Shown here in pieces: positions 9,526 to 25,074 of a stretch of 25,074 nucleotides of DNA. The notes under the pieces are model-generated. The model saw only the letters and a list, made by a program, of their open reading frames with translations, was not told the origin of the DNA and searched no databases. The stretch comes from a virus, in the IMG/VR virus record IMGVR_UViG_3300046654_000007, positions 1 through 25,074 of that record; one strand, given 5' to 3'. A program made the position numbers and the translations under genes. How positions within the stretch are numbered: position 1 is the first letter of the stretch; every line of letters begins with the position of its first letter.

Positions 9526-10590
9526 CTAGTTCCAAATTCCACCTCGAACGTAGTTGCCACGAGAACTCACTACCGGGGCGCCGAACGTCGCCGTGCTACC
9601 CGCCCACTGGTAGGTTCCGGGCACAGCCGCTACAAGCGCCGCAATGCTGGCCGGACTACCTTGCCATGCCCACGCACCAACGGTAGCACCTACAAGCGCG
9701 GGGACCGCTGCCTGCACCCCTGCCCACGTGTACGCGCCCGTGGTGGCGTTTACCAGCAGGGGGACATTGGCCGGAGCCCCTAGCCATGAATACTGACCGG
9801 GAGCGGCTGCAATTTGCAGGGGCACATCACTCTGCGTGCCGGTCCAAGCGTATGCACCGATACCCGCCGAGATGACGACAGTGCTGGCAAAGGTGGCCGT
9901 GGTTCCGGCCCACGTGTACGCACCCGGAGCGCCATTGACCTGCGAGGGCACATCGGCCTGGACTCCAGACCACGTATAGAGTCCCGGAGAAGCCGATAAC
10001 CCACCACTGAATGTGACCGCAACACCCGCCCACGTGTACGCGCCGGGCAGTGCCTGAACCAGCAACGGAATAGACGAGGTGAGTCCAGCCCAAGACCACG
10101 TGCCGGGGGCGGCGTTGACCAGCGCAGGGACTGCCGATGTTGTGCCCGCCCAAGAATACGCACCGATGGTCTGCGATACGAGAATGGGTACGTTGGCAGG
10201 AGCGCCGGCCCAAGAATACGCACCGGGGGCAGCGTTGACCAGTGCTGGGACACCAGATGTCGTGCCAGCCCAAGAATAAGTGCCCGTAACCGAATTGACC
10301 AGTGCCGGGACTGTGGACAACGTGCCCGACCAAGAATACGCACCGGGGGCCGCACCGACTAGCACCGGGACGAGTGCCGCGACACCCGTCCAACTGTACG
10401 CGCCCGCCGTGGCAGGAATTAGAAGCGGGACTGTGGAAGTGCTGCCTGCCCAGGAGTAAGCGCCGGGGGATCCGGCGATTAGGCCAAGTAGGGGAGAAGT
10501 GCTACCTGCCCAAGTGAACGCGCCGGGGCTGGCGGAAACTGTGACAACGCCACCGCCGCCTCCTCCGGTGAGAGCGAGGAGCAGGGACAT
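9526..10590 (-). CDS. structural protein made of sixteen 20-residue G-x-aromatic-x-W-x-G repeats
   Basis: After a 20-residue leader (MSLLLALTGGGGGG, hydrophobic then six Gly), residues 21-343 consist of sixteen tandem units. Fourteen are exactly 20 residues, one is 22 and one is 21, and an 11-residue tail ends in GGIWN. The consensus is roughly APGAYSWAGTTSxVPALVNA. Gly3, the aromatic at 5, Trp at 7 and Gly at 9 are nearly invariant, while the second half varies. Charged residues are almost absent. Such regular units suggest a beta-solenoid or stacked beta-hairpins presenting an aromatic face, as in phage adhesins or decoration fibres. It follows the larger fibre-like gene by four bases (ATG 10590-10588, weak ribosome binding site). 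The leader resembles short SLLLLL-Gly leaders on other phage head or tail proteins. The function is inferred. Confidence 0.8.
   Translation of the reverse strand: MSLLLALTGGGGGGVVTVSASPGAFTWAGSTSPLLGLIAGSPGAYSWAGSTSTVPLLIPATAGAYSWTGVAALVPVLVGAAPGAYSWSGTLSTVPALVNSVTGTYSWAGTTSGVPALVNAAPGAYSWAGAPANVPILVSQTIGAYSWAGTTSAVPALVNAAPGTWSWAGLTSSIPLLVQALPGAYTWAGVAVTFSGGLSASPGLYTWSGVQADVPSQVNGAPGAYTWAGTTATFASTVVISAGIGAYAWTGTQSDVPLQIAAAPGQYSWLGAPANVPLLVNATTGAYTWAGVQAAVPALVGATVGAWAWQGSPASIAALVAAVPGTYQWAGSTATFGAPVVSSRGNYVRGGIWN
9562..10530 (-). repeat. about 60-bp tandem repeats coding the 20-residue units
   Basis: The DNA of the repeat protein is itself an imperfect tandem array of about sixteen 60-bp units. 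The best conserved parts are the codons for Pro-Gly-Ala-Tyr-Ser-Trp-Ala-Gly, seen on the given strand as recurring GCCCAAGAATACGCACCGGG-like blocks. Units 4-8 are the most alike. Units 9, 11 and 16 differ most. Confidence 0.85.
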
Positions 10591-21649: not shown

Positions 21650-21839
21650 GTCCGAGGTCCTTCAAGATGCTGACAAGACGCTGAATTATCTTCGGGGAGT
21701 CACCATCGATGGTGATGGATGACGGGGACCCTTCAGTCTTACGATAGATGAATGTGGCAACCGCTTCGTCGCCAGCGGTGATATATGCCTTAACCTCCAG
21801 GCATTCACGTGTATTCTGGTTCTGCATAGGAAGGTTCAT
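21639..21839 (-). CDS. hypothetical small phage protein overlapping the terminase end, 66 residues
   Basis: I place the start at ATG 21839-21837. An in-frame ATG at 21827 is also possible, and the frame extends to 21896 over the terminase. The gene overlaps the terminase end in another frame by about 35 bases. The product has beta strands (CLEVKAYITAGDEAVATFIYRK, then SSITIDGDSPK) followed by a helix, KIIQRLVSILKDLG. No family is recognised. It is coupled to the following small gene through overlap. Confidence 0.55.
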   Translation of the reverse strand: MNLPMQNQNTRECLEVKAYITAGDEAVATFIYRKTEGSPSSITIDGDSPKIIQRLVSILKDLGHEP

Positions 21840-23385
21840 TTCGTCTTGGCGCAATGGGTTCCATGTCATATATCCGGGCGGCTGCGTCGATTGCATCCTT
21901 CAGTCCGTGCGGAAAGTAGTGGAATTGTAGCTTCAATTGAGCAGTCAGGTCATATAAATTTCCATGCTCGTCCTTACGGCGGATGGGGCGCGCGATGCGG
22001 TAGTCATATCCAGTGCCCAACATGTGCCGCTGTATCTTGGTCAGGTTCTTCTCGTCCGTCTCATAAGGGAAGAAAATCTTGTGGGACCGGCAGTCCGGCA
22101 CCAGCCGCTGCACCCGGTCGGTCTTGGATCCCTCACCGTCGCGCGGCCATGCCAACTCCTTCACCTCGAAATGTGGGCGGTCGGGCAACCGCATCTGCTC
22201 CTTGAAGTAGTCCAGGTCCGCTTGGGCGCCGAACGACTCGTACCCCATCTTGACCTGCTGAACCCCAGTCGCGCTGGCCCACTTGATGTACATCCGCGCA
22301 AAGTTCTCCCACCGCTCCTTCAGGTCCATCTTGTGGTTGTACCCATCCAGCAGATATTTGTTGTTGCCCGCGTCGATGCCGATCACAATGATCGCGGTGT
22401 TGGCTGAGTCCTTCTTCTTGGACCGGGCCGGATCACACATGACATAGACCGCCAGTGTCTCTGGTCGCACCTCGTACACCTGCAAATCCTCGATGTTGAA
22501 TATCCGCTGCTCACCGCTCAATGGGTTCTGCAGGTACTGACACGCCAGATCAGAGTCGGTGTTCTTGAGCAGTCGCTTGTCCCACTCGCTCTGCGGAAAC
22601 AGAACCGGCACACCGTCCCGGGTCCCATCGTGTGTGGCCGGGTATATCCGGGGCACCAGCGCCTTGCGGTTGATGATCCACTCATAGGTGTCAGCATACG
22701 AGTATCGTGTGCCCACCATCCACTCTTCGCCACCCACGGTCCCCAAGGACTGACTCAGCGAGTATGCATCCGTGGTCTTTTGACTCTGCTCTGGGGTCGA
22801 GACGCTCTTGTCGGTCACGACGTCGTCGTATATCCGCAGCTTGTAGTGCTTGCCAATCGGCTGCCCGTCGATCAGTCCAGACGCCTCCACCGTCGCTTCT
22901 TTGGAGTTCCCCTCACGCTTGACCACGATCCCATCCGTCGACCACCGCTGCGCCTGGCGCGAGGGGTTGTCCCACAGAATCTCAGGGAACAACTTCTTCA
23001 GGTTCTCATTGGTCTCAAGCTCCACCTTGATCTGCCGCAAGAAGTCGATGGCCAACCCTGACACGTTCGAGAATATCCCAATCGTGATCTCCGGATCCTG
23101 CAGTATCCGCTGGATCGACCCGCCAAATGTGATGATGGTGCTCTTGTAGTGCTCGCGCGCCCACAGGTCAATGTGGCCAGTGGGGTCCCGCTCCACCTCG
23201 CGGCAGCGTTCATACAACCACGGGTGCAGCATGTCCCGGCGCCGACACATCTGAACCAGTAGGTAGTAGCGGTCCCACAGACACAAGGAGCGCACCCCGA
23301 TCAGGTCCCGCCCACTGTCACTGATCTTGTCCCAGGCGCCAAAGAGATCCGGACCAAACGGAAGGTCAAGGGTGGGTAGGCGCAT
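21805..23385 (-). CDS. terminase large subunit
   Basis: The 526-residue protein is the DNA-packaging motor. The ATPase half shows a deviant Walker A, AREHYKST (76-83, Lys81), a Walker B LRIYDD with Asp187 and Glu-equivalent Asp188, and the coupling-type segment VGTRY (224-228). The nuclease half shows the acidic cluster typical of the RNase H-like fold: Asp318 in CDPA, Glu383 in GYESFG and Asp497/Asp500 in GLKDAID. The Walker B acidic pair is Asp-Asp rather than the usual Asp-Glu, which also occurs in this branch of terminases. ATG 23385-23383 shares one base with the stop of the small membrane protein (TAATG), so it is probably coupled to it. The length is near the family norm. Confidence 0.9.
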   Translation of the reverse strand: MRLPTLDLPFGPDLFGAWDKISDSGRDLIGVRSLCLWDRYYLLVQMCRRRDMLHPWLYERCREVERDPTGHIDLWAREHYKSTIITFGGSIQRILQDPEITIGIFSNVSGLAIDFLRQIKVELETNENLKKLFPEILWDNPSRQAQRWSTDGIVVKREGNSKEATVEASGLIDGQPIGKHYKLRIYDDVVTDKSVSTPEQSQKTTDAYSLSQSLGTVGGEEWMVGTRYSYADTYEWIINRKALVPRIYPATHDGTRDGVPVLFPQSEWDKRLLKNTDSDLACQYLQNPLSGEQRIFNIEDLQVYEVRPETLAVYVMCDPARSKKKDSANTAIIVIGIDAGNNKYLLDGYNHKMDLKERWENFARMYIKWASATGVQQVKMGYESFGAQADLDYFKEQMRLPDRPHFEVKELAWPRDGEGSKTDRVQRLVPDCRSHKIFFPYETDEKNLTKIQRHMLGTGYDYRIARPIRRKDEHGNLYDLTAQLKLQFHYFPHGLKDAIDAAARIYDMEPIAPRRNEPSYAEPEYT

Positions 23386-23601: not shown

Positions 23602-23805
23602 TCAGTCCAGGCTCGATCCGTTGTAGGCTGTGCGCTTCTGGTATGCCTGATCGCACATCAGGTGGTCCTCCAGCTTCTCCGCTATCTTCTTGTTCGATAT
23701 GCGAGCGATCATACCGTCGAGTTCATAGGAGCCCGACAAGTCTTTGATCGTGCGCCAGTCCTTTGGGCAGCATTCGTGGTTCGTGTAGTGGGAGAGCTTT
23801 TTCAT
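23602..23805 (-). CDS. hypothetical small phage protein, 67 residues
   Basis: ATG 23805-23803 overlaps the small terminase stop as ATGA and has GGAGG just upstream. The product is basic at the start (MKKLSHYTNHECCPKDW), with a Cys-Cys pair and a third Cys later (LMCDQAYQ). A helix (ISNKKIAEKLEDHL) follows. His and Cys residues in the first part could bind metal, but no standard zinc pattern is present. No family is recognised. Confidence 0.65.
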   Translation of the reverse strand: MKKLSHYTNHECCPKDWRTIKDLSGSYELDGMIARISNKKIAEKLEDHLMCDQAYQKRTAYNGSSLD

Positions 23806-24356
23806 TTAACCTCCAGTTTTTTGACTGCGTAGTCGAGTAGCTGCGCCGGGGTGAACACAGCCATGGCGATCTTGATAGGCCCACCATCAGCCCCCTCGAT
23901 CTGCTGCACGATTTTATCCCCATACACCTCGTTGTAGTCTGCCCCCATCACATATTTCCGTGAGTCGATGCGTAACTTGGAACGAGCCACATCTTCGAGG
24001 GGGTTGTCCACAGCATCGGCAATCTCAATGATCTCACCGGCAAACACTTCGGCTCGTAGCTGCTTGGCATCCTTGAATCGCAAGCGGCGCTCAGAGTCCT
24101 TGTTCATCCAGCGCAGGAAGGCGCCCCGCTCAAACTCGCGAATGTCCTCGGCAAGCAAGGTGTTGAGATTCCCACCTCCTGCGATCCCTTCGAGGATGCG
24201 CTCAAAGACGATGGGGTACTGGACGAGTTTGAGTTCCAGCAGCGCCTGTTCATGGGTGAGCGCAGGCACAGGTGCTGTGAGCCAATCAGGAACAAGCCAC
24301 GCAGGAAGAGGAGTCTCTTTGTGCTTGGGTTCAACATCTGTGATGCTTTGGTTCAT
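23802..24356 (-). CDS. terminase small subunit (Sf6/P22-type-like)
   Basis: The protein is 184 residues from ATG 24356-24354; an upstream TTG at 24374 would add six residues (MAIICT). The C-terminal half carries the pattern of small terminases of short-tailed phages: LRFKDAKQLRAEVFAGEIIEIADA, then LEDVARSKLRIDSRKYVMGADYNEVYGDK. The N-terminal half has a helix-rich region that would hold the DNA-recognition domain (ALTHEQALLELKLV, then FERILEGIA). Oligomers of this subunit recognise the packaging start site and load the large subunit. No ribosome binding site precedes the ATG. A TATAAT lies eight to thirteen bases upstream, which suggests the message may start at or beside the start codon. Confidence 0.8.
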   Translation of the reverse strand: MNQSITDVEPKHKETPLPAWLVPDWLTAPVPALTHEQALLELKLVQYPIVFERILEGIAGGGNLNTLLAEDIREFERGAFLRWMNKDSERRLRFKDAKQLRAEVFAGEIIEIADAVDNPLEDVARSKLRIDSRKYVMGADYNEVYGDKIVQQIEGADGGPIKIAMAVFTPAQLLDYAVKKLEVK

Positions 24357-24363
24357 GGTGCAA

Positions 24364-24369
24364 ATTATA
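24364..24369 (-). promoter_or_regulatory. candidate -10 element (TATAAT) of a promoter for the late operon
   Basis: On the minus strand a perfect TATAAT stands just before the small terminase start. With a normal -10 to +1 distance, transcription would begin at about 24356-24358, on or beside the ATG. There is no ribosome binding site between them. A -35 match is poor: GAGACA about 19 bases upstream is the nearest. The promoter would then be weak, activator-dependent or phage-specific. Confidence 0.4.
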
Positions 24370-24530
24370 GCCAAAAGGTGGTTCTTTGTGTCTCACCTTT
24401 AGTTTGTCATTTGGTCTTGTTTCCAAAAAATTGGTGAAAAATTTTCTAGGGGATTTGTGAAATCTGAGAATTTAAGAACTTTGAGTGTCTGGGTTCAGGG
24501 ATGCTTTTTCTCAACCACCAGGTTAAGCCC

Positions 24531-24545: not shown

Positions 24546-24643
24546 CACCATGGTCGGCCTGGCGCGCGGGTCCTGTTTTCCAAATACCCACTGTATGGGT
24601 TCTGGTTTCACTGCAGCACCATGGTAGACCACAGACTAGAGCC

Positions 24644-24835
24644 ATGGGTCAGAGGGTCACAGAACCCAGGGTCACTGAACCCAGGGTCACTGAACCCAGT
24701 ATCACTGAACCATTACCTAGTACCCAATGGGTCAGAGGGTCACAGAACCCAGGGTCACTGAACCCAGTATCACTGAACCAGACCCATTACCTAGTACCCA
24801 ATGGGTCAGAGGATCACAGAACCCAGGGTTAACGG
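24644..24835. repeat. array of 15-bp GGGTCACTGAACCCA-type repeats in three blocks
   Basis: Three blocks each open with ATGGGTCAGAGG or ATGGGTCAGAGGA (24644, 24727 and 24801). Block 1 holds four contiguous 15-bp units (24654-24712). Block 2 holds three (24737-24780). Block 3 holds one (24811-24825). The consensus is GGGTCAC(T/A)GAACCCA; the last unit in blocks 1 and 2 is GTATCACTGAACCA. The blocks are joined by TTACCTAGTACCCA. A wider inverted pair, GACCCATT (24781-24788) and AATGGGTC (24800-24807), flanks the second junction. An inverted partial unit TGGGTTCAGGG lies at 24490-24500. The layout resembles iteron or packaging-site arrays. Confidence 0.8.
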
Positions 24836-25074
24836 ATGCCAATATAATGCACTGCTGTATAAAGTCACAGTGGTTATTACTTTAGTCTGTCGTCCGTATG
24901 ACAAATGGCTACTGCGTGCGCGAGATATATTTTTTTCTATGTTTCTTGTTTTTTTCGATTTGCGATCTGTAAAACCCCAGAACCCACTATTCGGCTATTC
25001 AGAGGTCAGACTAATGCAACACTAGGCAACATGGCATCCATGACCCCCCACAATCGGCATAGAATCCGATAAAC

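Follow-up and report, generated by a model that had tools for sequence, protein, structure and literature searches.

What is the function of an array of 15-bp tandem repeats lying directly upstream of a phage small terminase gene? The question arises from a 25,074-nucleotide stretch of viral DNA, the whole of which is referred to below as the window (IMG/VR record IMGVR_UViG_3300046654_000007, positions 1 to 25,074). An initial annotation, made from the sequence alone, offered three functions for this array: a packaging-recognition site, an origin of replication, or a control array for the late operon.

The window is a 25-kb phage fragment containing P22-like virion genes and a small terminase of the Sf6 type. 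An overlapping contig, L007, represents the same phage (99.99% identical over 12.8 kb) and reaches 553 bp past the window. This extension possesses small ORFs on the opposite strand, starting at 25263 in the extended coordinates, which places the array in a divergent intergenic region of ~0.9 kb. The terS mRNA is probably leaderless or nearly so, since its preferred ATG follows a TATAAT by only 7 nt, and a similar layout is found in relatives. Elsewhere in the window (9526–10590) a 354-aa protein is built of repeated units of the GAYSWAG...VPALVNAAPG type. The terminase features are as follows.

21805–23385, minus strand: terL, large terminase, of a lineage that differs from most other array-bearing phages
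23802–24356, minus strand: terS, small terminase of the Sf6 gp1 type (PF20901, phrog_1482), with ATG at 24356 preferred over TTG at 24374
24364–24369, minus strand: TATAAT, putative terS −10 element, 7 nt before the ATG, identified by consensus match only

The array consists of eight 15-bp units in three blocks (4+3+1) at an exact spacing of 15 bp. Six of the eight units are of the full GGGTCAC(A/T)GAACCCA type, one of these with a single mismatch, and units 2 and 3 of block 1 are identical. Every block opens with ATGGGTCAGAGG (24644, 24727 and 24801), and the linker ATTACCTAGTACCCA joins blocks twice, at 24712 and 24786.

24585–24601, no strand: imperfect palindrome TACCCACTGTATGGGTT, a possible weak or decayed site
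24644–24835, no strand: the complete array, with its 15-bp units in three blocks, the units proper being summarized as 24654–24823
24654–24713, plus strand: block 1, units at 24654, 24669, 24684 and 24699, the last being GTATCACTGAACC
24737–24781, plus strand: block 2, units at 24737, 24752 and 24767, the last again GTATCACTGAACC
24811–24825, plus strand: block 3, a single unit, GGATCACAGAACCCA
24836–25074, no strand: AT-richer stretch from the array to the early promoter, ~38–49% GC in 100-bp windows versus 56% for the genome

The 4+3+1 layout, with every block behind a common opener, had been described in the initial annotation, and is upheld by the coordinates and by shuffling: with up to three mismatches allowed there are 7 unit matches versus 1.57 expected, and none of 100 shuffles reached 7. 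The 8-bp inverted pair that had been assigned to the shared linker is exact at the second linker only (GACCCATT, 24781–24788; AATGGGTC, 24800–24807). The 15-mer, for which a search elsewhere had been recommended, is confined to the array and not scattered, with no further occurrence at two mismatches or fewer in the rest of the record; beyond the window, an exact 22-mer of the array was found in IMG/VR only in L007. Judged from the sequence, block duplication with gain or loss of units is a reasonable reading of this pattern. A coding repeat was ruled out, because the blocks are spaced 83 and 74 bp apart, which shifts the frame. An RNA element was likewise rejected; Rfam gave one match, far under the gathering score, and the array precedes the likely start of terS.

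The conserved element is not the 15-mer, which the initial annotation had taken as the key unit, but a palindrome at the block junctions, both of which have ACCCA-A-TGGGT in common.

24722–24732, no strand: canonical palindrome ACCCAATGGGT at the junction of blocks 1 and 2, proposed operator of the early protein RepC (see below); the motif is also present in relatives
24796–24806, no strand: canonical palindrome ACCCAATGGGT at the junction of blocks 2 and 3, proposed RepC operator

A third copy, read from the overlapping L007, lies just outside the window at 25127–25137. In the 25.6-kb extended sequence ACCCANTGGGT occurs three times, always in the control region, where 0.02 occurrences are expected in total. 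The closest annotated TerS to that of the window (40.9%) belongs to phage DSL-LC05 (locus L028), for which the family 'Luchaoviridae' has been proposed (PMC10611076). This 37.6-kb genome contains the ACCCA-N-TGGGT core four times, all upstream of terS, as part of repeated CTGACCCACTGGGTCAG-like palindromes. Dozens of phages whose TerS proteins are related have clusters of the same core upstream of the terS gene; relatives usually have several, and up to 13, compared with three exact copies in the window phage. Two IMG/VR scans with the motif alone (as a single palindrome and as a close pair) returned dense clusters mostly on contigs where this TerS adjoins. A de novo search for palindrome arrays across the whole genomes of G012, G019, G020 and DSL-LC05 recovered the array upstream of terS and none other than ACCCA-N-TGGGT.

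The window phage appears to be of mosaic origin. For TerS and the array it matches the DSL-LC05 group, while its TerL, portal and capsid match a lineage lacking the motif (L009, L012, L016 and L018, each for some of the proteins). ACCCA-N-TGGGT is absent from the relatives by TerL (L009–L025), some of which have other repeats upstream of terminase genes, namely GGGGATCC, TTTGTCTAG and TTGCATNCAA (L011:101–338, L021:4446–4770 and L012:3464–3592).

These associations bring up the possibility that TerS binds the palindromes and starts headful packaging beside its own gene. An Sf6-type TerS together with P22-like virion genes implies headful packaging, this TerS and the palindrome show tight linkage, and array and TerS have moved together into a different TerL and head background. 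The ends of near-complete contigs are scattered, as circular permutation would give, which is uninformative for a pac site; fixed genome ends at the array were rejected on this scatter. The array genomes also have an early and replication module in common, and this module travels with TerS, so that linkage of TerS to the motif cannot by itself separate a TerS site from a site for an early protein. Other phages show further combinations. MW202483, with a DSL-like TerL and a different early module, carries another palindrome array, GTTTAYGTAAAC, at the corresponding position upstream of terS (L282:28202–28613), and its TerS resembles that of DSL-LC05 only over ~28 residues near the C-terminal part. 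In G030 and G031 the same core, flanked by AT-rich DNA and accompanied by TGTGGATAA boxes, lies 1.2–1.4 kb upstream of an Sf6-type TerS that is 33% identical (L296:9180–9385 and L297:1974–2140); an HMM search for RepC found none in these two, nor do they have the DSL replication module, so that TerS and motif occur together there in the absence of a detected RepC, as a TerS site would allow. The 171-kb record G011 (L294 / L196) has a dense motif cluster with a period of ~63 bp, and neither TerS nor DSL-type early proteins were found in it.

The position of the palindromes relative to promoters argues for a different role. Where an early-sense TTGACA occurs within 30 bp of a palindrome (26 cases), it always starts 10–13 bp before the palindrome, which therefore fills the promoter spacer; a single terS-sense TTGACA was found within this range, at another distance. 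Among 52 dereplicated arrays, 16 have a palindrome in the −35/−10 spacer of an early promoter, compared with a mean of 0.37 and a maximum of 2 for shuffled flanks; a seventeenth row (L181) was left out of this count as an artefact at a sequence end. In the window phage TTAATA-N17-TATATA spans the copy at 25127 and is a putative promoter with a weak match, each hexamer agreeing with the consensus at 4/6 positions; the promoter scan of this phage did not list it.

From 25117, outside the window: putative divergent early promoter with the third palindrome (L007:482–511, minus strand of L007)

Throughout the family the early genes have a repeated leader in front of them, of the CTGTAACCCGTAACC(N)GTAAAGGA type, and the extension of the window phage has it as well (L007:375–396).

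On the other side of the array, the distance from the terS-nearest palindrome to the ATG was measurable in 32 arrays, and in most of them it is 48–49, 57–60 or 67–69 bp. This palindrome is phased to the terS start at 10.5 bp with R=0.77 (n=32; the P of 6e-9 ignores residual relatedness), while the mutual spacing of neighbouring palindromes shows weak periodicity (R ~0.18). In the window phage the phased position near terS lacks a canonical palindrome. Placement in the promoter spacer and helical phasing are marks of transcription operators, and both count against a pac site.

Which protein reads the palindromes? DSL-LC05 annotates a 103-aa 'repressor protein C' (RepC), relatives of which are found in most array genomes with a visible early region, some of them by HMM only. 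Its predicted structure is a compact helical HTH domain (pLDDT 86). By profile, the nearest solved sequence is the HTH of MqsA (E 7e-5), and the nearest folds, at weak Foldseek E-values, are HigA2, P2 C and MqsA. The MqsA operator is ACCT-N3-AGGT (PMC4901048), and thus has the ACC-N5-GGT frame in common with the phage palindrome.

Covariation was analyzed in loci fetched by TerS or RepC protein and not by motif. Where the recognition helix of RepC has Lys, the palindrome is present in 78/80 loci; with His or Asn it is present in 1/10 (Fisher 8e-10, counting sequences and not events). On the tree, which rests on few columns and has many unresolved forks, the change from Lys to His/Asn occurred at least twice. 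In L379, L346 and L370 the palindrome is GCCANTGGC, and all five copies in L379 are inside the array; the TerS proteins of these phages are 77% identical to that of a canonical phage, with the HTH nearly unchanged. The motif thus switches without following TerS. The His-type group L324/L330 shows no clear replacement motif, and L453–L456 are exceptions, in which a Lys-type RepC goes with a terS upstream region that lacks the palindrome. A Mantel test on centre-base preference slightly favoured RepC over TerS (partial 0.24 versus 0.18). Many of these statistics rest on the same loci, with tests devised while exploring them, and they are not independent confirmations of one another.

Since the palindrome changes together with RepC rather than with TerS, the evidence speaks against a packaging site recognized by TerS; as grounds for naming TerS the reader, linkage was strong but non-discriminating, whereas RepC covariation did discriminate. 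Published systems point the same way, in that reported binding of TerS to pac is weak or sequence-independent, and in P22 the pac sequence, 22 bp long and asymmetric, is located within terS itself (PMC9611059). We regard the pac interpretation as quite unlikely. From the sequence comparisons, the reader is most likely RepC, a small XRE/MqsA-like protein encoded in the early operon, rather than a packaging protein. The early genes of the window phage lie beyond the contigs found, and a RepC is presumed for it by analogy with its relatives.

Could the region instead be an origin of replication, with the repeats as iterons that act together with the AT-rich stretch, and with DnaA boxes in some of the relatives? 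The AT-rich core adjoins the array, and the array genomes carry a conserved replication module (PrimPol, PolB, SSB and SNF2, mostly 64–95% identity). Exact DnaA boxes, mostly as inverted pairs, are present in 8/71 arrays versus ~0.5 expected. Such paired boxes (TTATCCACA / TGTGGATAA) occur in the operator region upstream of terS in L107, L152, L181, L221, L260 and L278, and may indicate a nearby origin. The window phage, by comparison, has no DnaA box within one mismatch, and GC skew, which the initial annotation had put forward as a check, has no extremum at the array in any of the six array-bearing genomes profiled. Phages with other modes of replication need not show a GC-skew switch. An origin does not predict the placement of palindromes in promoter spacers or their phasing to the terS start. 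As an account of the array an origin seems unlikely, and it could coexist with operator function.

The 15-bp units themselves may be a functionless by-product of slippage, only the junction palindromes being of consequence, which would be compatible with the operator interpretation. The tandem 15-mer is found only in the window phage while the palindrome is family-wide, two adjacent units of block 1 are identical, and the half-sites in the 15-mer stand at a non-canonical spacing, ACCC-A-GGGT. Against this, the half-sites GGGTCA and GAACCC have been kept in the units, and short tandem arrays are often binding sites. We consider a by-product possible, and lean somewhat against it. A last alternative is that the palindromes are operators of a host regulator which these phages exploit. 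The same core clusters in phages without a detected RepC (G030 and G031) and in G011 could be explained in this manner, but the motif covaries with the recognition helix of the phage's own RepC, and its ACC-N5-GGT frame is shared with MqsA sites. This alternative is very improbable.

The array most likely consists of operators in a region that controls early and late phage genes, and tandem 15-bp duplication would have elaborated it in the window phage. More specifically, 24.36–25.26 kb is likely a divergent control region with palindromes serving as RepC operators on the early and terS sides. The early operon would run rightward, mostly outside the contig, and the late (terS) operon leftward. 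The palindromes would be bound by a small, presumably dimeric, XRE-type HTH protein made from the early operon. With an operator inside or against the early promoter, bound RepC would block RNA polymerase and turn the early genes off. In relatives an operator lies at a helically phased distance upstream of the terS promoter, where the bound protein would face the polymerase on one side of the helix and may so act on terS. The clustered copies in between probably permit cooperative binding or looping. In the window phage duplication would have enlarged the middle cluster into tandem 15-bp units of similar half-sites; these may be weak or partial sites, or may not be bound by RepC, the half-site spacing being non-canonical. 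Among the functions first offered, a control array is thus preferred and packaging by TerS is not. Late-operon control gains from promoter placement, phasing and RepC covariation, with its scope widened to the divergent early operon as well as terS.

The proposed arrangement resembles that of phage phi29, where p4 and p6 act at A2b/A2c and A3, and a regulator bound to inverted repeats shuts down early promoters and switches on a late promoter whose consensus match is weak (PMC3100819). In both, early and late promoters are close together, and a regulator made early acts (here by proposal) on inverted repeats. The two differ in that RepC is an XRE/MqsA-type HTH protein by sequence and model, and in the many more palindromes found here; late activation is deduced here from site positions and phasing. 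The lambdoid CI/Cro proteins and 434-type operators (OL/OR, Sf6 annotation) also combine a small HTH protein with palindromic operators over an early promoter. Sf6, however, has three operators per side in an immunity region far from terS, whereas here several to 13 palindromes lie upstream of terS, in relatives with one just upstream of the late promoter. MqsA, the nearest solved HTH by profile, uses the same ACC-N5-GGT operator frame; RepC differs in being a phage early gene product with many operators. Mycobacteriophage stoperators are likewise described as many copies of one repressor site per phage, and as asymmetric and spread over the genome, unlike the palindromes here, which are confined to one region.

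A repeat array beside terS can thus be taken wrongly for a packaging site. The motif by itself retrieves this group of phages and places their early/late junction, and with RepC it forms a candidate regulator-operator pair with natural specificity variants, in phages known only from metagenomes. We suggest, tentatively and with somewhat less than even confidence, that the early-to-late switch across a broad uncultured group of P22-like podophages is run by a single small regulator, which would block the early promoter by binding in its spacer and activate the leaderless terS promoter from helically phased operators, and whose operator code would have changed on at least two occasions through a single residue of the recognition helix. 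If this is true, these phages would provide a natural series of protein-DNA specificities.
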